64,000 bases of DNA from Pseudomonadota bacterium (GTDB taxonomy: Bacteria > Bdellovibrionota > Bacteriovoracia > Bacteriovoracales > Bacteriovoracaceae): NCBI GenBank assembly GCA_027488375.1, contig JAIYBW010000006.1, positions 62,001-126,000 on the forward strand, given 5' to 3'. Position numbers and translations under genes: made by a program. The stretch's first letter is position 1; every line of letters starts with the position of its first letter. The notes beneath the pieces are model-generated. The model did no database searches and had not been told where the DNA came from. It saw nothing but the letters and a program-made list of their open reading frames with translations. Positions 47,033 to 58,922 of this stretch are shown piece by piece.

Positions 47033-48574
47033 ATGAATTTTAATTCAGTGAAAAAAGACATTCAGTCTTCACTCGTCGTTTTTTTAGTCGCACTCCCTTT
47101 ATGTCTTGGGATTGCACTGGCCTCAAATGCACCTTTAGCGGCCGGTATTTTTTCAGGCATTATTGGTGGAATTGTGATTGGGATGATGAGTGGCTCACAG
47201 ATCAGTGTTTCTGGCCCTGCCAATACTCTGACCTTGGTTTTTGCAGCGGGCATGGCGAGTCTTGGTTCACTTGAGGCCATGGCCTTGGCCGTTTTTTTAG
47301 CAGGACTTATTCAAGTGTTTTTTAGTTTCCTAAGAGGCGGGGTGATTGGAGATTTTTTTCCAAATGCTGTGATTAAAGGAATGCTCGCAGCGATTGGTAT
47401 TATTCTCATCTTAAAACAGTTTCCTCATGCTGTTGGTTATGATGTGGATTACATGGGGGACGATGCTTTTTTTGAAAAATCTGGGAACAATACCTTTGGG
47501 CAGATCATAAATGCTTTTCAATTCATTCATCCTGGAGCTGTCCTTGTTTCAATCATGAGTTTGGCCATTATGCTAGGTTGGGATAAAGGAGCGATTAAGG
47601 GATTTCGTTTTTTTCAAATTATTCCAGGTGCCCTCATGGCGATTCTAGGCGCCGTGATAGTCAATTCTCTATTTAAGTCATTTTTTCCAGCTGTACTGAT
47701 TGACGGGGAACACCTCGTAAATCTTCCTTTTGAAGGGGGATTTAGAGAATTAGTGGATCAAGTTAAAGCACCCGCCTGGGAAATGCTTAAAAATCCTAAA
47801 ATCTACCCGATTGCTTTTTCCATTGCCATCATTGGCTCGCTAGAAAGTCTTTTGTCTGTAGATGCAGCTGATAAATTTGATGAGCATGGACGATTTACCA
47901 ATAAAAATCGTGAGCTACTCGCTCAAGGTGTGGGGAATGCCTTATGTGGACTTGTAGGGGGAATCCCTGTGGCCTCCGTCATTGTTCGATCTTCTGTGAA
48001 CGTAAATGCTGGGGCCCAATCAAAACTTTCCTCTATTTTTCACGGAGGCTGGATCCTGTTAAGTGTGGTGTTTATCCCTCATCTCTTAAACAAAATTCCT
48101 CTGCCTGTTTTGGCCTCCGTTCTTCTACTCGTGGGATATAAATTATCTCGACCGGGACTTTTTATCTCAATGTACCGCAAAGGCTGGAATCAGTTTATTC
48201 CCTTTATTGTGACAGTGCTGGCGATACTTTTTAGTAATCTTCTTATTGGAATTAGCATTGGGATGATAATTGGATTTATCTTTGTCATACGTTCTAATAT
48301 TCATAAATCAATTGTCGAAGTAAACGCAGATAATAGATATCTCATACGTTTTTATAAAGATGTTTCTTTTTTACAGAAAGCGGAGTTACAAAAAATATTT
48401 TTAACCATCCCTGAAAATGCCAATGTGGTGATTGATGGTTCACAAGGTGTTTTTGTAGATGATGATATCATTGATGTGATTGAAGAGTTTATCAAACGCG
48501 GGCAGACGATGGGGATAACGGTTCAACTAAAAAAATCGTCACTTGCCCTTTGTCCTATTTTTAAAGAGGTTTAA
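47033..48574 (+). CDS. SulP-family anion transporter (probable bicarbonate)
   Basis: This 513-residue SulP/SLC26-type carrier has about 12-14 membrane spans and a short C-terminal STAS-like part. Visible are VVFLVALPLCLGIALASNAP, SGSQISVSGPANTLTLVFAA (transport core), GVIGDFFPNAVIKGMLAAIG, SIAIIGSLESLLSVDAADKF and GLVGGIPVASVIVRSSVNVN. The C-terminus has NVVIDGSQGVFVDDDIIDVI. It is followed directly by a beta-carbonic anhydrase gene, a known pairing of bicarbonate-type SulP (BicA-like) with a CA. Sulfate cannot be ruled out by sequence. A second SulP lies at 52444. Confidence 0.88.
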   Translation: MNFNSVKKDIQSSLVVFLVALPLCLGIALASNAPLAAGIFSGIIGGIVIGMMSGSQISVSGPANTLTLVFAAGMASLGSLEAMALAVFLAGLIQVFFSFLRGGVIGDFFPNAVIKGMLAAIGIILILKQFPHAVGYDVDYMGDDAFFEKSGNNTFGQIINAFQFIHPGAVLVSIMSLAIMLGWDKGAIKGFRFFQIIPGALMAILGAVIVNSLFKSFFPAVLIDGEHLVNLPFEGGFRELVDQVKAPAWEMLKNPKIYPIAFSIAIIGSLESLLSVDAADKFDEHGRFTNKNRELLAQGVGNALCGLVGGIPVASVIVRSSVNVNAGAQSKLSSIFHGGWILLSVVFIPHLLNKIPLPVLASVLLLVGYKLSRPGLFISMYRKGWNQFIPFIVTVLAILFSNLLIGISIGMIIGFIFVIRSNIHKSIVEVNADNRYLIRFYKDVSFLQKAELQKIFLTIPENANVVIDGSQGVFVDDDIIDVIEEFIKRGQTMGITVQLKKSSLALCPIFKEV

Positions 48575-48575
48575 C

Positions 48576-49205
48576 ATGGATAGAATTAAGCATTTACTAC
48601 TAGAAAATAAAGCTTGGGCCCAAAGTCATTTAGATTTAAATCCAAATTACTTTAAAGATATGGCCCGAGACCAAAACCCTGAATACCTTTGGATTGGATG
48701 CTCTGACTCAAGAGTCCCAGAGTCTGAGATCACCAATAGTCGTCCTGGTGAAATTTTTGTTCACCGAAATATTGCGAATTTGGTTGTTCATACGGATACA
48801 AATTTTTTGAGTGTTTTAAGTTATGCTGTTCACTCACTTAAGGTTCCCCATGTGATTGTCTGTGGACATTATAATTGTGGAGGAGTTCGTGCCGCCTTAG
48901 CGCAAAATAGTTTTGGACTCATTGATAACTGGGTAAGAAATATTAAAGATACTTATTTTACTCATAAGTTTGAGATAGATGGTGCGAAGTCAGAAAACGA
49001 GCGCGTGAATAAACTCGTCGAATTTAATGTTATGGAACAAGTTAAAAATCTTGCTCATACCTCAATTATTCAGAGGGCGTGGCATGAGCGTCAAGCTCCC
49101 CATATTCATGGTTGGGTTTATGACTTGAATCAGGGATTACTCAAAGAACTAGTAACGATGGGGCCTGAGAGTAAATTAGATTCAGTTTATAAATATGATT
49201 TTTAA
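48576..49205 (+). CDS. can: Beta-class carbonic anhydrase
   Basis: The enzyme interconverts CO2 and bicarbonate. From the ATG at 48576 (AAAGAGG 7 bases ahead) it has 209 residues. Zinc ligands are in IGCSDSRVPESE (Cys, with catalytic Asp-Arg) and VIVCGHYNCGGVRAALA (His and Cys). PGEIFVHRNIANLVVHTD is the usual middle motif. There is no signal peptide, so it works in the cytoplasm, where it would convert bicarbonate imported by the preceding SulP protein. It starts 1 base after the SulP stop, indicating one transcript. Confidence 0.94.
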   Translation: MDRIKHLLLENKAWAQSHLDLNPNYFKDMARDQNPEYLWIGCSDSRVPESEITNSRPGEIFVHRNIANLVVHTDTNFLSVLSYAVHSLKVPHVIVCGHYNCGGVRAALAQNSFGLIDNWVRNIKDTYFTHKFEIDGAKSENERVNKLVEFNVMEQVKNLAHTSIIQRAWHERQAPHIHGWVYDLNQGLLKELVTMGPESKLDSVYKYDF

Positions 49206-50020: not shown

Positions 50021-51691
50021 CTAGATCAGGATCTGAAAGCAGGCCCCTTTAGGATTTGAGACGTAATGAATTTCAGCTTGGTGGAGATCAAGAATTTTCT
50101 TCGTGATCGCAAGCCCCAACCCTGTACCTTTTCGCTTAGGATCCGTTGAAACTTTCATTTTTCTTTCAAAGAGGGAAGGAAGCTCTTTTGGATCAATTCC
50201 TGGGCCCTGATCTTCAAAACGAATGAGAACCTTCGTATTAGACATACTGATTGAAATCGTAATCGTCGAGTTTCTTGGACTAAAATCAATTGAGTTATCT
50301 AAAAGATTTAAAAAGGCTGATTTTAAAAGTTCTGGGAGAACATTTTTATCCAAGGCCTGCAGAGCATCGGTAAGCTCCTCTTGAAGATTTAAGCGAATCG
50401 TGATGGATTTTTTTGAAGCCTTGGCCCCCACAAGAGAAATCGTTTCATTAAGGATTTCAAGAATATTTTCTTTCTCAAGAGGGATTGATTGAAGTGAATC
50501 GATTTGCCCCAAGAGTAAAAAGTCTTCCACCACTTTTATCAGATGATCGACCTCTTTTTTAACTTCCGGAATATTTTGTACGAGCTCATTAGGTTGCCCC
50601 AAATAATTGTGAATAATAGTGAGGGGGGTTTTAAGCTGATGAGAAACATTCTGAATAAATTCACTTCTTTCTTTTAAAAGAACTTGAACAACTTCTTCAC
50701 GATGACGCTTTTTATCATCTCTCCAAAACCAGAAAACAAGGAGGAGATAGATGGCAGCTTCCCAAAAAATTCTCGTTAGATGCTGATGATAGATCGCTTT
50801 TTTAATTGAATTTTCTGGAATTGTTGAGAGAAGATACCAGGTTCCAGAACTCTTTGGGAGCGGAAGGCGCGTAAAATTAAAGATATCATTTTTACGAGTA
50901 AAACTTCCTTGGAAAACAGTTTTTTTACTCAAGACTTTAAAGGTCTTTTCAGAGATATCTATTTTCTTTTTTGTGTACTCTTCCTCCTCAAGGAGAGGGT
51001 AACTAGCAACAGTGAATCCCTTATGATCAACGAGGAATTTTTCTGTGGCGAATGTTGGATCAAATGTTTGACCGACAAAAAGTTGAAATATTTCAGATCC
51101 ATCTATATTGAGAACAAGTAGTGCTTCGCGATTATTTTGATATTTAATTCTTTTAGAAACTCGAATGGCCGGTCTGATTGGATTTTCTGGAACCCCATTG
51201 ATAATATTGGCCTCCATCGAAGAAAAATAAAACTCCTCAAATTTAACCTGGCTTAATTCTTTAAAAAAATCTTGCCCTGAGAGGTTATAAAGATTTTTAG
51301 ACTGCTCATATTTTTTTGAATCTCGATTTTGAACAATTTTAAAAATCTCATTCCCTTCATTGGTCGCAATTCTGAGTTTAAAGTAGTGAGCATGTGTGTT
51401 TAAAAAATCAATCAGGTTATTGATATCTTTTTCTTGATTTTTACTGGCGAGGATAATCTGGATTTTCTTTTCAATAAAATTGAGGTCATCTTCAAGGCTA
51501 TAAAGGAGGCGGTAGACTTCACTGGAGAGTATTTTGTCGGACTGAATAATCTCGAGGGATATCTGTGCTTTTTTTTCTTGAATATTGAAACGAGTTAAAA
51601 AGAAGTCAATGATGATGACGCCAATGAGGAGAAGGATTGCAAAGAAGAGTGTTCTATTTTTAGATTTCAAATTATTCATGATTGAAGACAT
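50021..51691 (-). CDS. Sensor histidine kinase of the SulP-dab region
   Basis: The 556-residue membrane kinase has a first membrane helix near 14-33 (TLFFAILLLIGVIIIDFFL) and a large periplasmic sensor of about 270 residues, possibly a dCache type. A second helix lies near 308-325 (EAAIYLLLVFWFWRDD). The HisKA domain carries the phosphorylated His351 in IQNVSHQLKTPLTIIHNYL. The ATPase domain has LLDNSIDFSPRNSTITISI (N-box), RFEDQGPGIDPKELP and GTGLGLAITKKILDLH. It starts inside the response regulator stop region (20-bp overlap), so kinase and regulator are coupled. The ligand is unknown, but the flanking CO2/bicarbonate genes make it a candidate sensor. Confidence 0.92.
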   Translation of the reverse strand: MSSIMNNLKSKNRTLFFAILLLIGVIIIDFFLTRFNIQEKKAQISLEIIQSDKILSSEVYRLLYSLEDDLNFIEKKIQIILASKNQEKDINNLIDFLNTHAHYFKLRIATNEGNEIFKIVQNRDSKKYEQSKNLYNLSGQDFFKELSQVKFEEFYFSSMEANIINGVPENPIRPAIRVSKRIKYQNNREALLVLNIDGSEIFQLFVGQTFDPTFATEKFLVDHKGFTVASYPLLEEEEYTKKKIDISEKTFKVLSKKTVFQGSFTRKNDIFNFTRLPLPKSSGTWYLLSTIPENSIKKAIYHQHLTRIFWEAAIYLLLVFWFWRDDKKRHREEVVQVLLKERSEFIQNVSHQLKTPLTIIHNYLGQPNELVQNIPEVKKEVDHLIKVVEDFLLLGQIDSLQSIPLEKENILEILNETISLVGAKASKKSITIRLNLQEELTDALQALDKNVLPELLKSAFLNLLDNSIDFSPRNSTITISISMSNTKVLIRFEDQGPGIDPKELPSLFERKMKVSTDPKRKGTGLGLAITKKILDLHQAEIHYVSNPKGACFQILI

Positions 51692-52340
51692 AACCTATAC
51701 CTACGATTGTTTTAATTAATTTTTTATCCGAGACCGAATCAATTTTTTTTCTTAATTGTTTAACGTAAACATCAACCACATTGGATTCTGGATCAAAGTG
51801 CAAATCCCACACATGCTGAGCGATTTGAACTCTTGAGAGTGGTCTTCCAATATTGCGTAAAAAATATTCTAAAAGAGAAAATTCTTTTGTCGTTAATTTA
51901 ATAACCTGCCCTGATCTTGAAACTTGGCGTTTCACAAGGTCCATTTCTAAATCTGCACATCTTAAATAATGGGAATTGCCTTGATGGCGCCTCATGAGCA
52001 CTCTCACCCTGGCCGTTAATTCCTCAACATGAAAGGGCTTAGTCATGTAATCATCAGCTCCTGAGTTGAGTCCACTTACCTTGTCATGAATTTCGGCCAG
52101 TGTGGTCAACATAAGGATAGGAGTATTAGATTTTTGGGACTTAAAATCTTTGCAAAGCGAGAGCCCATCATCATCTGGGAGCATGAGATCAAGAATCACT
52201 AAACCATAGTCATGGAGTGAGAAAAGCTCCCTGGCCCTCACGCCAGAGCTCGCGAGCTCCGGAATGTAACCCAGACTGGAGAGAACCTGAGCTGTATACT
52301 GTGCAATTTTAATTTCATCTTCTACAACAAGAATTCTCAT
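51672..52340 (-). CDS. OmpR/PhoB-family response regulator
   Basis: The 222-residue regulator has a receiver domain with the acceptor Asp51 in LVILDLMLPDDDGLSL, acidic residues in VVEDE and the conserved Lys in DDYMTKPFHVEELTARV. The C-terminal winged helix reads LTTKEFSLLEYFLRNIGRPL, then VDVYVKQLRKKIDSVSDKKL and IKTIVGIGYVF, as in OmpR-type regulators. It is the first gene of a regulator-kinase pair, divergent from SulP-dabA-dabB. Its own start lies 29 bp from an array of 11-bp direct repeats, likely its DNA site, which would allow both autoregulation and control of the dab operon. Confidence 0.94.
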   Translation of the reverse strand: MRILVVEDEIKIAQYTAQVLSSLGYIPELASSGVRARELFSLHDYGLVILDLMLPDDDGLSLCKDFKSQKSNTPILMLTTLAEIHDKVSGLNSGADDYMTKPFHVEELTARVRVLMRRHQGNSHYLRCADLEMDLVKRQVSRSGQVIKLTTKEFSLLEYFLRNIGRPLSRVQIAQHVWDLHFDPESNVVDVYVKQLRKKIDSVSDKKLIKTIVGIGYVFNHE

Positions 52341-52368
52341 GATTTCAGTGCCTTGCGAGATGAAGAAA

Positions 52369-52401
52369 TTTTCATTTCGTTTTCATCTCATTCTCATTTC
52401 A
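52369..52401 (+). promoter_or_regulatory. Three tandem 11-bp direct repeats (OmpR-type box)
   Basis: TTTTCATTTCG (52369-52379), TTTTCATCTCA (52380-52390) and TTCTCATTTCA (52391-52401) lie back to back with an exact 11-bp period. Eleven-bp direct repeats read by a winged-helix regulator are the classic OmpR/PhoB box. They occupy the -35 zone of a TATAAT at 52408 and sit between the divergent regulator and SulP genes. The link to this regulator is inferred. Confidence 0.65.
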
Positions 52402-52407
52402 TGTTCT

Positions 52408-52413
52408 TATAAT
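52408..52413 (+). promoter_or_regulatory. -10 element of the SulP-dabAB promoter
   Basis: A perfect TATAAT lies 6 bp after the last 11-bp repeat and 30 bp before the SulP ATG at 52444. No good -35 is present at the right distance, only the repeats, so the promoter probably needs the activator. Confidence 0.6.
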
Positions 52414-52443
52414 GATTAAAAATTTTACTCTCAGGCCCGGACG

Positions 52444-53976
52444 ATGACAAATTCAAATTCTCTTAATTCTCCCTTCCAAAAATTTGCCCTCCAAGATTTA
52501 AAAGCTGGAATGGTAGTTTTTCTTATCGCCTTACCGCTCTCTCTTGGAATTTCTCTTGCGAGTGGGGCCCCTTCTACGGCGGGACTGATTTCGGCTGCTT
52601 TAGGAGGAATTCTTGGTGCTTACCTGGGAGGATCTTACGTCACGATTAATGGGCCGGCTGCAGGTTTAATTGTTGTGGTCTTGAACGCTATACAAAATTT
52701 AGGGGAAGGCGATGCGGCCCTTGGATTTAAGAGAATGCTTGCCTGTGTGATCGTAGTGGGCATTCTTCAGATTCTAAGTGGATTGTTAAGATTTGGAAGA
52801 TTTGCCGCCCTTTTTCCCCTTTCAGTTGTTCACGGGATGCTCAGTGCAATTGGGCTCATTATCATTATTAAACAATCCCATGTCTTCTTTGGACAAAAAG
52901 CTCTAGGCTCGATCATAAATTCAATCATCACGATTCCACAAACAATAGGGAATCTTAATCCAGAATCATCTCTCATTGGACTCATGAGTCTGGTGCTCCT
53001 ACTGGTTTATCCTTATTTAAAAATTAAAATAACCAAAGTTATCCCTGCACCACTCGTTGTGGTTGTTTTAGGTGTGCTTCTCGCTAAGTATTTTAGCTCG
53101 GCTTCTTTAGTGAATATCCCGACTGATATCTCTTCATTCTTTATCACTCCATCTTTTGATATTATTTTTAGCCCAGCTTCTCTCATGGCCATTTTCTCTC
53201 TTTATTTTGTCGCCAGCCTTGAATCTATCCTTTCTGCTAGTGCCGTGGATAAACTTGATCCCTTAAATCGTGAGTCTAATTTTGATCGTGAGCTTTGGAG
53301 TAAGGGAATTGTTAACATTGGCTGTGGTTTAGTAGGAGGGCTCCCGATTATTGCTGAAATCGTCCGTTCTTCGGCCAGTATCTCTCAAGGTGCAAGATCT
53401 CCACTCGCTAATTTTTCCCATGGTTTTTATATTTTAATATTCCTGATACTTTTCCCAGCTGTGTTGAACATGATTCCACTCTCATCACTCGCCGCCATCT
53501 TAATCTTAGTGGGGTATCGGCTAGCGCAGCCTAAGCAAGTTTTGCATATGAAAAAACTTGGAACAGGTTCTTTTATAAGTTTTTTAACGACGATTATTTT
53601 AACGTTGGTAGAAGATCTCTTGATCGGAATTTTCGCTGGGATGATGATAAAAATAATAGTTTCTCTAGTAAAAGGAGCAACTGTCGCGAGTCTCTTAAAA
53701 CCCAAGTACCAGCTCACAAATCAGGGAGAGTCTGCCTTACTAGAATTTGAAGGCGCCCTCATTTTCTTCTCGGCTTTAAGTCAAAAAAGTATTCTTGGTA
53801 AATTAAGTCAATTCAGACAAATCGAAATCAAAATTGATAATGTTCATTATATTGATGCAACGTCTTTAACGATTTTTATCAATGAAATTCATAAAATGGA
53901 AAAACAGGGACTTCATATCTCTTTTAATGTTCCGCCTAAATTTATGACATTATTCATTCATGTAAATAATCATTAG
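52444..53976 (+). CDS. SulP-family anion transporter upstream of dabAB
   Basis: The 510-residue SulP protein starts MTNSNSLNSPFQKFALQDLK. Core helices are seen in VVFLIALPLSLGISLASGAP, GGSYVTINGPAAGLIVVVLN and FPLSVVHGMLSAIGLIIIIK. ASLESILSASAVDKLDPLNR and GLVGGLPIIAEIVRSSASIS follow. A C-terminal STAS domain reads FEGALIFFSALSQKSILGKL and DNVHYIDATSLTIFINEIHK. It is a paralogue of the protein at 47033 but more distant, and the STAS part is better preserved. It is probably the first gene of a SulP-dabA-dabB operon. The transported anion is inferred to be bicarbonate from the neighbours. Confidence 0.88.
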   Translation: MTNSNSLNSPFQKFALQDLKAGMVVFLIALPLSLGISLASGAPSTAGLISAALGGILGAYLGGSYVTINGPAAGLIVVVLNAIQNLGEGDAALGFKRMLACVIVVGILQILSGLLRFGRFAALFPLSVVHGMLSAIGLIIIIKQSHVFFGQKALGSIINSIITIPQTIGNLNPESSLIGLMSLVLLLVYPYLKIKITKVIPAPLVVVVLGVLLAKYFSSASLVNIPTDISSFFITPSFDIIFSPASLMAIFSLYFVASLESILSASAVDKLDPLNRESNFDRELWSKGIVNIGCGLVGGLPIIAEIVRSSASISQGARSPLANFSHGFYILIFLILFPAVLNMIPLSSLAAILILVGYRLAQPKQVLHMKKLGTGSFISFLTTIILTLVEDLLIGIFAGMMIKIIVSLVKGATVASLLKPKYQLTNQGESALLEFEGALIFFSALSQKSILGKLSQFRQIEIKIDNVHYIDATSLTIFINEIHKMEKQGLHISFNVPPKFMTLFIHVNNH

Positions 53977-53997: not shown

Positions 53998-56451
53998 TTG
54001 GAAAAGTTAACTGAAGATGATTTAAAAATAACGGGACGTTTAGAAATGGATCGCTTCCTAGAAGAGATAGCTCAAGAGCTACCGATTATTCGACCGATCT
54101 CAGAATTTATCCATTTAAATCTTTTGCTTCCTTATCAAAACCTCCCTTTTTGGGAAGCCGTCAAAACTGTCAGTAAAAAATTTGAAGCGATGCCTTTTGG
54201 CGAGCTTGATCTTTATCGAGAAAAAATAAAGAGTGGATTTTTATCAGAAGAACTCATCAAACAAAAACTTGCACAAATAGCTCCATCTGAGGTTTCAGAT
54301 ATTATAGATCTTCTCCATCATAAGCATATTGAATTCATTCACCATGATCTTCGGAACGGAAAGCTTCATCATCATTGGAACTCTTCATTGGGAGTCAATG
54401 TCGCCTCACTCGCTGATAGTATGCTCATTAAATGGATGGGCATGTATATTGATCAGGGTATTGGACTTTGGGAAATGCCAGGGGCCGACGATTATAGTTT
54501 TTACGAGACGATTAAAAATCTTTTTCAAGAAAGTCTCGTTAAACCTGCCCCTTTTTCCAGCAAAAATTTTGAATTTCTTTTTGCTGATTCAGCTGAAAAT
54601 GCCATCAACCGCCATTTAAAATTTCTTTGTCCGGATCCAATGACTCAAGCCGAGTATTTAAGAGAATCTATTTTTACCTTAAGAGGTTGGGCGGGACTTA
54701 TATATTGCTTGGAGAAAAATCCAACGCTTATTCCTTTTAAAAGGAAAGTAAGTCTCATTGATTTTATGGCGGTTAAACTTATTTTAGAACGGGCCTGGAT
54801 CATAAACCATAATCCCAAAGCTGAAGCCCCAAACTTTAAAGAACTTCAATTAGATGATTCTAACCCTATTAAAGATGAAAAAATCTTCAGTCTCTTTAGG
54901 GCCTGCCAAGAAGCCTTAGAGGAGCAAACTTATAAACACTATTTTCAAAAGTTAAACTTAACTTCAAGAAAAGAAGTCAAAAATCCAAACTATCAGGCCA
55001 TCTTTTGTATGGATGATAGGGAATGTGCTCTCAGAAGAAATTTAGAAAACTTAAATGAGGGCATAGAAACTTTTGGAACGGCTGGACACTTTGGTATTGA
55101 AGGTGTTTTTCAGCACTCAGAAGATGCTTTCCCAAAAAAACAATGCCCGGCCCCTTTGACACCACGATACCTAATTAAGGATAGTGTTTTTAAAAAAGAA
55201 AAAAGGCAAGAGCTGACTCATGATTTGATTCAGCCCTCTCATAAATTCTTAGGAGATTTTTTTCAATCGATTACTGGCGGTTTGAAATCAGGATTTCTTT
55301 TGGCGATGAATCTCTTTTTCCCATTGGCCTTCAAGAAAACGGAGACAGTGAGAGAAATAAAACTAAATTCTCATTTAAAATTTATTAACAACGGTGAAGG
55401 GCCAGGGGCTGATGGACTAAAAGTGGGCTACACTTTTGAGGAAATCGCTGAATTATTAAATGGGCAACTTCGGCTCATTGGTTTTATTCATCAATTTGCT
55501 CCACTCATTTTTGTTTTTGGACACGGCTCAAATAGTGTGAACAACCCTTATTTTGCGACTTATGGTTGTGGCGCCTGTTCAGGAAGACCTGGCTCGGCCA
55601 ATGCCAGAACATTTGCTTCTATGGCCAATTTACCTGAGGTTAGAGAGATTTTAAGATTAAAATATAATATCAATATTCCTCCTACGACATATTTTGTGGC
55701 AGGCTTTCATGATACTTGTCGTGATCTTATCGATCTCTATGAAACTCATCTTCTGCCTGACTCGCTTAAGCCTTCATTTCATAAATTTAAAAAATATCTC
55801 TCGCTGGCAGTTTATAAAAATGCCCGAGAGAGATCCCAAATGTTTAAACTTGTGACTTATAGGCCTGTGAGTAAATTAGCTCAGAAAGAAGTCTTGAGAA
55901 GATCTTATTCTCTATTTGAAACAAGACCAGAAATGGGCCATACAAATGTCGCTTTTTCAATTGTAGGAAATAGAAGTCTTACTAAAGATGTTGACCTCAA
56001 TCGACGATCTTTTTTGCAATCCTATGATCGGGAGATTGATCCAGAAGGGGACATTCTCGCAAGTTCTTTAGGTGCGGTGATTCCTGTAACTTCAGGAATT
56101 AATCTTGATTATTATTTTTCTCGAGTTGATAATTTACGTTTTGGAGCTGGCTCTAAACTCCCCCAGAATATTGTGGGTAATATTGGTGTGAGCCATGGAA
56201 CTGAGAGTGATCTCTTATTTGGATTACCTTTTCAGATGATTGATCAGCACACACCTTTAAGGCTTTTTGTTCTGGTTGAACAGTCTCCAGAAATAGCTCT
56301 GTCTGCTATTCAGAAAAATCCTTTAGTAAAAGAAATTGTTTATAACAACTGGGTTCATTATGGATGTTGGGATTACAAGACCCATTCGTACTATGTCTTT
56401 CGTAAGGGTGAGATGATTAAACTAAATCATTCATTGGAAGAATTATGCTAG
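53998..56451 (+). CDS. dabA: DabA: zinc-containing inorganic-carbon accumulation subunit
   Basis: DabA (DUF2309, formerly UPF0753) is a cytoplasmic protein with a beta-carbonic-anhydrase-like zinc site that makes bicarbonate from CO2 when coupled to DabB. The 817 residues include Cys337 and Asp339 in AIFCMDDRECALRRN, His509 in FVFGHGSNSVNNPYF and Cys524 in TYGCGACSGRPGSANAR. The spacing 337/339/509/524 closely matches the published C351/D353/H524/C539 of Halothiobacillus DabA (from memory). The start is a TTG at 53998 with GATGAGGA upstream; no in-frame ATG fits. The stop overlaps dabB by 7 bp. Confidence 0.93.
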   Translation: MEKLTEDDLKITGRLEMDRFLEEIAQELPIIRPISEFIHLNLLLPYQNLPFWEAVKTVSKKFEAMPFGELDLYREKIKSGFLSEELIKQKLAQIAPSEVSDIIDLLHHKHIEFIHHDLRNGKLHHHWNSSLGVNVASLADSMLIKWMGMYIDQGIGLWEMPGADDYSFYETIKNLFQESLVKPAPFSSKNFEFLFADSAENAINRHLKFLCPDPMTQAEYLRESIFTLRGWAGLIYCLEKNPTLIPFKRKVSLIDFMAVKLILERAWIINHNPKAEAPNFKELQLDDSNPIKDEKIFSLFRACQEALEEQTYKHYFQKLNLTSRKEVKNPNYQAIFCMDDRECALRRNLENLNEGIETFGTAGHFGIEGVFQHSEDAFPKKQCPAPLTPRYLIKDSVFKKEKRQELTHDLIQPSHKFLGDFFQSITGGLKSGFLLAMNLFFPLAFKKTETVREIKLNSHLKFINNGEGPGADGLKVGYTFEEIAELLNGQLRLIGFIHQFAPLIFVFGHGSNSVNNPYFATYGCGACSGRPGSANARTFASMANLPEVREILRLKYNINIPPTTYFVAGFHDTCRDLIDLYETHLLPDSLKPSFHKFKKYLSLAVYKNARERSQMFKLVTYRPVSKLAQKEVLRRSYSLFETRPEMGHTNVAFSIVGNRSLTKDVDLNRRSFLQSYDREIDPEGDILASSLGAVIPVTSGINLDYYFSRVDNLRFGAGSKLPQNIVGNIGVSHGTESDLLFGLPFQMIDQHTPLRLFVLVEQSPEIALSAIQKNPLVKEIVYNNWVHYGCWDYKTHSYYVFRKGEMIKLNHSLEELC

Positions 56452-58259
56452 AAATTTTTGTTTGGATTTATATTCTCCCTATTCTGTCTTGTCTCGTACT
56501 GTGCTTGCCTTATCGTTTTCAAGAAAAGACAGTGACTCGTCTAACTGGAATGAGCCTCCTTATACCGGCGATTTTCACTCTTTCTCTGCTTCTCTATGAA
56601 GGGTGGTTAGGAGCGCTACCCCTCGAGCACAATGCTTTATCACTTAATTTATTTGGGCACGTTTTTGATCTCGTGATTTGGATAGATTTCAATACCATCA
56701 TCATGATGATGCTAACCCATATTTTGGGTTTAATGGTTGTCAAATATGCCCATGGTTATTTGCATTTAGAAAAGGGATACCAGCGTTTTTTTAGCACTAT
56801 CCTTTTTTTTATTTTCGGGATGTACGTCCTCAGTCTTGCTGGAACACTAGATCTCTTCTTTGCTGGCTGGGAACTCGTTGGTTTTAGTTCCTTTTTCCTT
56901 ATTGCCTTTTATCGCTCTCACACTCGATCAGTCATGAATGCTTGGCGAGTTTATAATATTTACCGAGTCTGTGATGTCGGAATCCTTATGGGAGCGGTTC
57001 TGGGACATGTGCTTTGGCATGAAGCCACTCGATTTTCAGAGATTATTCAAATTTCAAATACAACTTTTCTGAATACGCCAAAACTTTACATCGTGATTAT
57101 GGGACTGTTTCTTGTGATGGCCTCTGTTGGAAAGTCTGCCCAATTCCCTTTCCATACTTGGCCTTCTAAAGCCATGGAAGGGCCAACGCCATCGAGTGCT
57201 ATTTTTTATGGTGCACTTTCTATTCATGCAGGAGTTTTTCTCCTCGTGAGAACATTTCCCATTTGGTCCATCTCGACTGAAATAAAGGTATTAGTGATGT
57301 TCATTGGAATGATCACTTTTATCTTATCCACTCTTCAGGGAAGAGTTCAGGCCAATATTAAAGGTCAGATTGCCTTCGCTAGTACCGCCCAGATTGGGAT
57401 CATGTTTGTGGAATTATCCCTTGGATTGACAACATTAGCGATGATCCATCTCTTTCTACATGCTCTCTACAGATGTTTTCAACTTCTTGTTTCTCCTTCG
57501 GTTGTGGCCAATTCCCTCACACTTAATAATAAAGTTATGCTTGATCGAATCTCTAAAGGTAAAGAGTGGGAATTAAGATTTCTTCCTAAAAAGTTAAATG
57601 CAACTCTCTACACTCTGGCGCTTAATGATTTCTCCATGGATCCCTCGTGGAGAGGCTTTGGTCTTATCCCGTGGAGAAAAGCTTACATGCTCTTGAGAAA
57701 TATCCTTTCAAAACCGGTTTATGTCATTCCCCTTTTCTTTTTACTGCTCTTGCCAGATTTTGCTCTTCATCGCTGGCCGTGGATTCTTTCTTCCATTTCA
57801 CTACTCTATAGTATGAGGGCACTTTTCTACCAGACGGATCCTTTTCATTCGATGATTGATCTTTCTATTTCACTTGCGATGGATATGTTGAGTATTGTTT
57901 TGATTGATACCCATGCCATCATCGGGATTAAAATTTTCTTACTCTCAGTCATCCCTGCTCAGATTTTAGGCCTTTATATTTGTAGTCACTATAGGCATTT
58001 GAGTTTAAGAGAATTTCATGCCATGGGAACCGCTCATCCCTTGCATGGGAATCTATTCCTCGTAAGTTTTATGATTCTAGCAGGTATGCCTATTAGTACG
58101 GCTTTTTTTGGAGAAGATATTATTTTAGAGGAATTGATTAATCACTCTCTTTATATGTCTTTTGCTACAACAATAAGCCTGATGATGAATGGCTTAATAT
58201 GTGTAAGAATTTACACCAGAATATTTATGGGAAGTCGTTCTCTCATTCATGAAGATTAG
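56445..58259 (+). CDS. dabB: DabB: NuoL-like proton-conducting membrane subunit
   Basis: DabB resembles the NuoL/MrpA antiporter-like subunit of complex I and is thought to pass cations to drive DabA. The 604-residue protein has about 14 membrane helices. LAGTLDLFFAGWELVGFSSF carries the conserved Glu of TM5, and SAQFPFHTWPSKAMEGPTPS is the strongly conserved proton-path loop with Lys, His and Glu. IKGQIAFASTAQIGIMFVEL and IHLFLHALYRCFQLLVSP follow. It starts 7 bp inside dabA. No other complex I genes are nearby, which separates it from NuoL. Confidence 0.92.
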   Translation: MLEIFVWIYILPILSCLVLCLPYRFQEKTVTRLTGMSLLIPAIFTLSLLLYEGWLGALPLEHNALSLNLFGHVFDLVIWIDFNTIIMMMLTHILGLMVVKYAHGYLHLEKGYQRFFSTILFFIFGMYVLSLAGTLDLFFAGWELVGFSSFFLIAFYRSHTRSVMNAWRVYNIYRVCDVGILMGAVLGHVLWHEATRFSEIIQISNTTFLNTPKLYIVIMGLFLVMASVGKSAQFPFHTWPSKAMEGPTPSSAIFYGALSIHAGVFLLVRTFPIWSISTEIKVLVMFIGMITFILSTLQGRVQANIKGQIAFASTAQIGIMFVELSLGLTTLAMIHLFLHALYRCFQLLVSPSVVANSLTLNNKVMLDRISKGKEWELRFLPKKLNATLYTLALNDFSMDPSWRGFGLIPWRKAYMLLRNILSKPVYVIPLFFLLLLPDFALHRWPWILSSISLLYSMRALFYQTDPFHSMIDLSISLAMDMLSIVLIDTHAIIGIKIFLLSVIPAQILGLYICSHYRHLSLREFHAMGTAHPLHGNLFLVSFMILAGMPISTAFFGEDIILEELINHSLYMSFATTISLMMNGLICVRIYTRIFMGSRSLIHED

Positions 58260-58262
58260 GAT

Positions 58263-58922
58263 ATGAAACCGATTGCTTTTATAGAAACTCCCTTTAAGGA
58301 AAAATTTGGTGTTCCTCGCCAATCCCTTCTCATTGAAGAGGCTTGGGGAAAGCTTGAGTTTATTAAAAATGATTTTAATCTAGAGGCTTTTCGTGGCATT
58401 GATGAGTTTACCCACCTCTGGCTTATTTTTTCATTTCATAGGGTGATTGAAGAAGGAGTGAAGGCGTTGGTCAGGCCTCCGCGCTTTTCTGGTTCTGAAA
58501 AATGGGGTGTCTATGCTACACGATCACCTCATCGCCCCAATCATTTAGGACTCTCAGTTGTAAAATTCAAGAAACTTGAAGTGACTAAAGATAAAGTCAT
58601 TCTTTGGGTGGATGGGGTTGATCTCGTTTCTGGAACTCCTATTCTAGATATTAAACCTTATATCACTTATTCGGATTCGATTATCGAGGCAAAAAGTGGG
58701 GTCTTTCATCAGAGTCCGGAGTTTAAAAAAGTAAGATGGATTCAAGCTCAGGATCTCGATTCAAATATTAAAACACTGATTGAAAAAGTGATTGCTTTAG
58801 ATCCGCGGCCAAGCTTTGATCAGGACCTGTCATTTGGAGTATCAGTGGCCGGATACAATGTGAGATTTCACGCTGAGGGAGATGAGTTTGTGATCGATTC
58901 ATGCCTTAAGGAAGATGGATAA
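58263..58922 (+). CDS. trmO: tRNA N6-threonylcarbamoyladenosine methyltransferase TrmO
   Basis: TrmO (TsaA, YaeB) methylates t6A37 in tRNA-Thr. The 219 residues show IAFIETPFKEKFGVPRQSLL at the start, FTHLWLIFSFHR, ALVRPPRFSGSEKWGVYATR, SPHRPNHLGLSVVKFKKL and DGVDLVSGTPILDIKPYIT, all typical of the TsaA beta-barrel and its SAM site. It starts 3 bases after dabB and so may be cotranscribed, though no functional link is expected. The end overlaps the convergent phosphoethanolamine-transferase-like gene by 17 bp. Confidence 0.93.
   Translation: MKPIAFIETPFKEKFGVPRQSLLIEEAWGKLEFIKNDFNLEAFRGIDEFTHLWLIFSFHRVIEEGVKALVRPPRFSGSEKWGVYATRSPHRPNHLGLSVVKFKKLEVTKDKVILWVDGVDLVSGTPILDIKPYITYSDSIIEAKSGVFHQSPEFKKVRWIQAQDLDSNIKTLIEKVIALDPRPSFDQDLSFGVSVAGYNVRFHAEGDEFVIDSCLKEDG

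Follow-up and report, generated by a model that had tools for sequence, protein, structure and literature searches.

The gap between a two-component regulator gene and a divergent SulP-family transporter gene, in the 64,000-nucleotide stretch of DNA analysed here (the window), carries a compact element made of an inverted repeat, two further half-sites in phase with it and a −10 box. The same element stands in all five regulator|SulP gaps that could be compared. It is likely that a dedicated two-component system uses it to activate the divergent SulP gene, as a class II activator would, carrying along in this genome the dabAB genes of inorganic-carbon uptake. It is well supported that we are dealing with an ordinary kind of switch with an unusual target.

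The gap spans 103 bp (52341-52443), from the ATG of the regulator gene, on the minus strand, to that of SulP. Its plus strand holds three contiguous 11-mers (52369-52401), with TCAT half-sites at 11-bp steps: TTTTCATTTCG (52369-52379), TTTTCATCTCA (52380-52390) and TTCTCATTTCA (52391-52401), the last of which deviates from the 11-mer consensus at one position. Six base pairs (TGTTCT) then lead to a −10 box, TATAAT (52408-52413, plus strand), 10 bp past the last TCAT. The original prediction had described three phased 11-mers ending 6 bp before TATAAT at 52408, and this is exact to the base. It had also stated that a normal −35 is lacking; indeed, at a spacing of 16-18 bp from TATAAT the best hexamer has at most three of six matches to TTGACA. 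The element is nevertheless bigger than had been noticed, an inverted-repeat arm having been overlooked. An ATGA at 52360 precedes the TCAT of the first repeat by a fixed 8 bp, which gives a 16-bp inverted repeat, ATGA-N8-TCAT (ATGAAGAAATTTTCAT, 52360-52375, plus strand). Its right arm is repeat 1, and we propose it as the operator core. In full, the element of the window consists of this inverted repeat, two more half-sites at 11-bp steps, N10 and the −10 box.

Three TCAT at 11-bp steps were attained in 6 of 20,000 dinucleotide shuffles of the window gap, and the whole element (inverted repeat, repeats and −10) in none, figures that are flattering, the pattern having been picked once the sequences had been seen. 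Along the 64-kb window, the repeats with the −10 occur once when up to three mismatches are allowed, with 0.19 expected. A search of the window's genome for a second target (repeats and −10, at most two mismatches) returned this gap alone, while the backward control also gave one place. Reading the inverted repeat as a terminator was rejected: sites resembling terminators number 7, vs 8.0 in shuffles, and the upstream gene is on the other strand.

The regulator gene (51672-52340, minus strand) encodes a receiver and a winged-helix domain (PF00072, 90.2 bits; PF00486, 89.7 bits), matches that bear out the membership of the OmpR/PhoB family initially ascribed to it. The best of 89 NCBIfam models for this protein is TIGR01387 (heavy-metal response regulators, CztR/SilR/CopR); with 228.4 bits against a curated cut-off of 279.2, assignment to that family was discarded. 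The companion gene (50021-51691, minus strand) encodes a membrane sensor histidine kinase, with HisKA and HATPase_c domains found by profile search and a dCache sensor domain predicted from a structure model and a fold search. The model of the sensor region has a mean pLDDT of 76.4 (4 sequences), and its best match in the fold search is 3lid (E 7.7e-16, TM 0.57/0.64). The region is accordingly predicted to adopt the dCache fold, a term that names a fold and not a ligand.

A regulator search in 129 genomes of the family gave six regulators with at least 61% identity, the window's included, and five of the six (window, G007, G004, G005 and G015) are divergent from an orthologous SulP gene. Identity to the regulator of the window is 86% for G007, a near relative, and 64-68% for the other three; the G007 contig holds SulP for its first 18 codons only, which read as in the window. 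Every one of these five gaps displays ATGA-N8-TCAY-N7-TCAT-N7-TCAT-N10-(−10), with TATAAT, TATAAT, TATACT, CATAAT and TATTGT as −10 boxes, and the sequence flanking the element is poorly conserved among them. When the first 105 bases of each gap were shuffled 20,000 times, the full element never appeared, in any of the five; the three repeats alone came up 0 to 41 times per gap. The inverted repeat is weak by itself (39 to 2,902 of 20,000 shuffles per gap). Its arms pair at 6, 7, 4, 4 and 4 of 8 positions across the five gaps and, beyond ATGA/TCAT, good pairing is confined to the window, G007 and G024 (6, 7 and 6 of 8). In G024, a SulP orthologue lies behind a shortened element, one direct half-site being missing (L202, L237); no orthologous regulator is present on its 8.8-kb contig, which starts about 0.4 kb upstream. 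All six promoters, the five and that of G024, have at most three of six −35 matches to TTGACA at 16-18 bp. G005 and G015 possess a 4-of-6 hexamer at 15-bp spacing, so that some basal promoter activity is possible there. The SulP orthologues of G023 and G020, with contigs that end at the gene start, were left outside this promoter comparison. Finally, in a tree of 25 regulators the five form one clade with that of G017 (support 100/100). This sister regulator (L093, 37-3952) adjoins SulP and SbtA (PF05982) genes; it lacks the box, is not in divergent orientation to SulP, and sits on a contig that ends before any kinase gene.

Since the pattern was fixed after looking, tests on sequences outside its definition weigh more. 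Among 368 genomes of the phylum, five have the element in its exact form, at one place each, with none in the backward control; no copy is more than 0.5 kb away from an OmpR-family regulator gene. Three copies stand in SulP gaps. The remaining two belong to other systems, not used to define the element, and stand in front of other regulator genes (PF00072 and PF00486): one in G192 (L234, 1812-1865), with the gene of a 101-aa protein in between, and one in G262 (L235, 5346-5399). Allowing one mismatch in the same genomes yields 12 places, the five exact ones included, vs six in the control, so that about half of what this search returns is noise. A regulator is present within 1.5 kb of eight of the 12 places and not of the other four, while about 1% of random places would be expected so close to one, by arithmetic from the window's genome (8 winged-helix matches in 3.2 Mb).

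More distant regulators were surveyed over 876 kb around the best 80 listed. The repeats with the −10 turned up at three places there, and 11 permuted half-sites combined with the same −10 pattern at none; the TTCA permutation, which overlaps the repeats out of frame, gave one place with each of two other −10 patterns. Two of the three places immediately follow a gene that, judged by eye, is presumably that of the kinase, and both precede transporter genes. In a Bacteroidetes bin (L129) the transporter is an RND pump of AcrB type, a 128-aa frame intervenes and the inverted arm is present; in an Actinomycetota bin it is an ABC transporter. The third (L144), 6.2 kb from the regulator, was left uncounted, and most loci of these best-listed 80 have no element. 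Without the −10, TCAT steps in the scanned flanks number two at 11 bp, vs three at 12 and five at 15; as the 11-bp spacing does not then rise above other spacings, weight is given only to the repeats combined with the −10. Among paralogues, the regulator of G029, divergent from an HlyD-RND pair, is preceded by 13 of 15 positions at the same spacing, and 11 other paralogue gaps reach at most 12 of 15.

That the element might reflect chance, or AT-rich repeats devoid of regulatory meaning, is thus very hard to believe: the region is T-rich and the one-mismatch searches are noisy, but shuffling failed to produce the element in each of the five gaps, and its exact form occurs five times against none in the control, always close to regulator genes. 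Because it is present in five gaps out of five, at a fixed distance from the −10 and with a poor −35, and because it recurs before two other two-component operons, the element very probably serves the neighbouring regulator as its operator, at a promoter that depends on an activator.

Starting from an element, a conservation and a gene layout that are established, we infer the following course of events. Once phosphorylated, the OmpR-family regulator would bind the inverted repeat together with the two half-sites in phase with it. The copies bound nearest the promoter would occupy the −35 region and recruit RNA polymerase to TATAAT, a class II activation suggested by the end of the last TCAT 10 bp before the −10 and by the poor −35 hexamers. 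The divergent SulP gene would thereby be switched on, with DabAB inorganic-carbon uptake carried along via a probable SulP-dabA-dabB-trmO operon, and the kinase would read its signal through the predicted dCache domain. Counterpoints are the G017 regulator without a box, the reduced box of G024 and the weakness of the inverted repeat alone. The layout of OmpR/PhoB-activated promoters, invoked at the outset, is retained here as to operator geometry and dependence on an activator; a pure PhoB-type direct repeat fits less well, the core looking like an inverted repeat joined by two in-phase direct half-sites.

The same element could mainly serve repression or autoregulation, the regulator blocking its own operon instead of activating SulP. 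A consensus scan places a possible sigma-70 promoter for the regulator and kinase genes, TTGTCA-17-TAAAAT, at 52422-52450 on the minus strand; it is the best minus-strand match, and its transcript would cross the operator. Matches of 9-10/12 that end 77-84 bp before the regulator start are seen in three of the five gaps (window, G007 and G004), and the left arm of the inverted repeat faces the regulator. Yet the TCAT half-sites are in tandem in the SulP direction, with the same distance to the −10 of SulP in all five gaps, no comparable minus-strand match exists in G005 and G015, and the region as a whole has promoter matches at the level of its shuffles (26 in total vs 22.5). We therefore consider a mainly repressive or autoregulatory element quite improbable. 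Autoregulation of the regulator operon in addition to activation of SulP is, by contrast, likely, because in the window, G007 and G004 transcription from a promoter of the regulator may pass through the element.

What, then, is the target? The SulP-family anion transporter gene (52444-53976, plus strand; PF00916) has orthologues behind the same box. In the window it is followed 21 bp later by dabA (53998-56451, plus strand; PF10070, 606 bits over positions 2-747 of 747), which dabB overlaps (56445-58259, plus strand; PF00361, 120.9 bits, and PF00662). A PF10070 DabA adjoining an antiporter-like DabB is the mark of a DabAB pump. A gene for a TrmO-like tRNA methyltransferase (58263-58922, plus strand) starts 3 bp after dabB and closes what is, from this spacing, probably a single SulP-dabA-dabB-trmO operon in the window's genome. 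Control of SulP-dabAB by the kinase and regulator had been predicted. As a general rule for dabAB this is not supported, for the box tracks SulP. Upstream of the dab operons of relatives, it was absent from all 25 regions of 400 bp (20 genomes, out of 31 others with a DabA match), the best score being 13/19, when the SulP gap of the window scores 19/19 on the same scale. Directly upstream of the window's own dabA, the best score is 13/19, with a background of 10-13.

The order of genes in the relatives tells the same tale. Genes for dabAB are seen behind the box in the window's genome only, the contigs of G007 lacking the greater part of SulP as well as the beginning of dabA. In G004 one finds dabA, dabB, then the kinase and regulator genes on the other strand, then SulP, which is followed by genes other than dabAB; the dabA upstream regions there score 11-12/19, with no box. 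In G005 a different gene comes after SulP, and dabA, of another type of about 920 aa, is on another contig. A DabA match is lacking in G015, a genome 81% complete whose contig ends inside SulP. Judged by these arrangements, the conserved target of the element is SulP, not dabAB, and DabAB would probably be under its control here, in one genome, only via co-transcription of SulP, dabA and dabB.

Retention of the box with SulP rather than with dabA in G004, G005 and G015 would also suit a switch that serves SulP alone, dabAB having its own promoter or being partially co-transcribed, so that the two-component system would not set DabAB levels. There is indeed a weak promoter match (ATGACA-18-AATCAT, 9/12) whose end is 25 bp upstream of dabA, and dabA and dabB contain three terminator-like sites on the plus strand; across the region, sites of either kind are at shuffle level. 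We find this unlikely for the window, given the short distance from SulP to dabA, the overlap of dabA and dabB, and the want of any terminator-like site between SulP and dabA.

Activation of SulP from this operator, with DabAB in its wake, has parallels among known systems. The operator looks closer to those of AgrR, from Cupriavidus metallidurans, than to a pure PhoB-type direct repeat. In the accessible part of the AgrR report, this OmpR-family protein, a proposed type II activator, has its operators in divergent gaps, as 16-bp inverted repeats of 6-4-6 layout (consensus ATKACANNNNTGTMAT) with extra in-phase direct half-sites at some of them (PMC7380067). As far as that text goes, the in-phase direct half-sites, the proposed type II activation, the divergent gap and the family of the regulator are common to both. 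As to the inverted repeat, a 16-bp span with outer ATGA/TCAY is kept here in five gaps of five, but the arms pair at 6, 7, 4, 4 and 4 of 8; two more TCAT follow at 11-bp steps in all five. The AgrR consensus as given there is not matched: the ATGAAGAAATTTTCAT of the window differs from it in both arms, its half-sites are TTCAT-like, and the inner arm bases are not kept. Moreover, AgrR targets silver/copper resistance, whereas the target here is a SulP/Dab operon.

The HssR box of hrtAB, a heme efflux system, has a TTCAT-like sequence in two repeats, and we know of no inverted arm in it. Like the present element, it stands ahead of a transporter operon and consists of direct repeats; a response regulator binds it, according to the accessible portion of its description (PMC6305404). 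CusR, HprR, CopR and CzcR, in the portions of their reports at hand, also have two-component genes divergent from the operon they control, with the operator in the gap (PMC11195947, PMC8249747). For CusR this operon is a transporter operon, and CusR and HprR share the single-target divergent layout, with a very small regulon (PMC8249747, PMC11195947). In the same portions their operators are given as palindromes and their signals are metals or peroxide, unlike here. The DabA-DabB pair itself recalls the MpsAB/DAB systems of non-autotrophs, as these appear in accessible text (PMC8567241, PMC13144422). Two-component control of such systems was not found in the literature searched, most subscription journals being beyond reach.

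With reference to carbon metabolism, the RuBisCO large subunit (PF00016) is matched in none of 26 genus genomes, the window's own (91% complete) included. The role is therefore one of inorganic-carbon supply, not of a classical carbon-concentrating mechanism, and the comparison with carbon-concentrating systems drawn in the original prediction is not apt. That prediction had also set the sensor kinase against the LysR-type regulators of many such systems, a contrast that stays tentative: the word LysR does not occur in PMC12628692, PMC10880623 or PMC13144422, and it does in the carbon-fixation literature, as in PMC2942843 (12 times). One may tentatively imagine, as a possibility that falls short of probable, that the dCache two-component system senses inorganic carbon outside the cell, pH or some related metabolite, and turns on SulP and the DabAB pump in response, with no RuBisCO, for heterotrophic growth. 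The link to carbon recurs elsewhere, the G017 regulator being next to genes for SulP and SbtA, while in G024 SulP is downstream of an alpha-carbonic anhydrase-like fragment (translation judged by eye). If the proposed activation of SulP is right, supply through SulP (and DabAB here) would be set in this lineage by a membrane sensor, which would offer a way to learn what heterotrophs perceive when carbon dioxide or bicarbonate is short. As an operator the element is, besides, precise enough to search for: with all five exact copies in 368 genomes near an OmpR-type regulator gene, its sequence by itself can connect two-component systems with the genes they target.

Several features of the surroundings deserve mention. 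The window contains another SulP gene, which overlaps one for a beta-carbonic anhydrase (47033-49205); the pair ends about 0.8 kb away from where the kinase gene ends, and no box precedes this operon (best score 11/19 upstream of 47033, background 10-13). A LysR-like gene, recognised by eye from its translation, lies about 3.5 kb downstream of the G024 SulP (L237, 5466-6320). Two types of DabA coexist within the genus, one of about 810 aa (window, G003, G009, G010 and G012), the other of about 920 aa with a different operon; besides G015, the genus genome without a DabA match is G019 (91% complete). In G003 and G012, a receiver gene (L032, 5058-5537, PF00072 alone; L035, 11383-11757, by similarity) points away from the SulP-dabAB operon, with a frame of about 118 aa in between.
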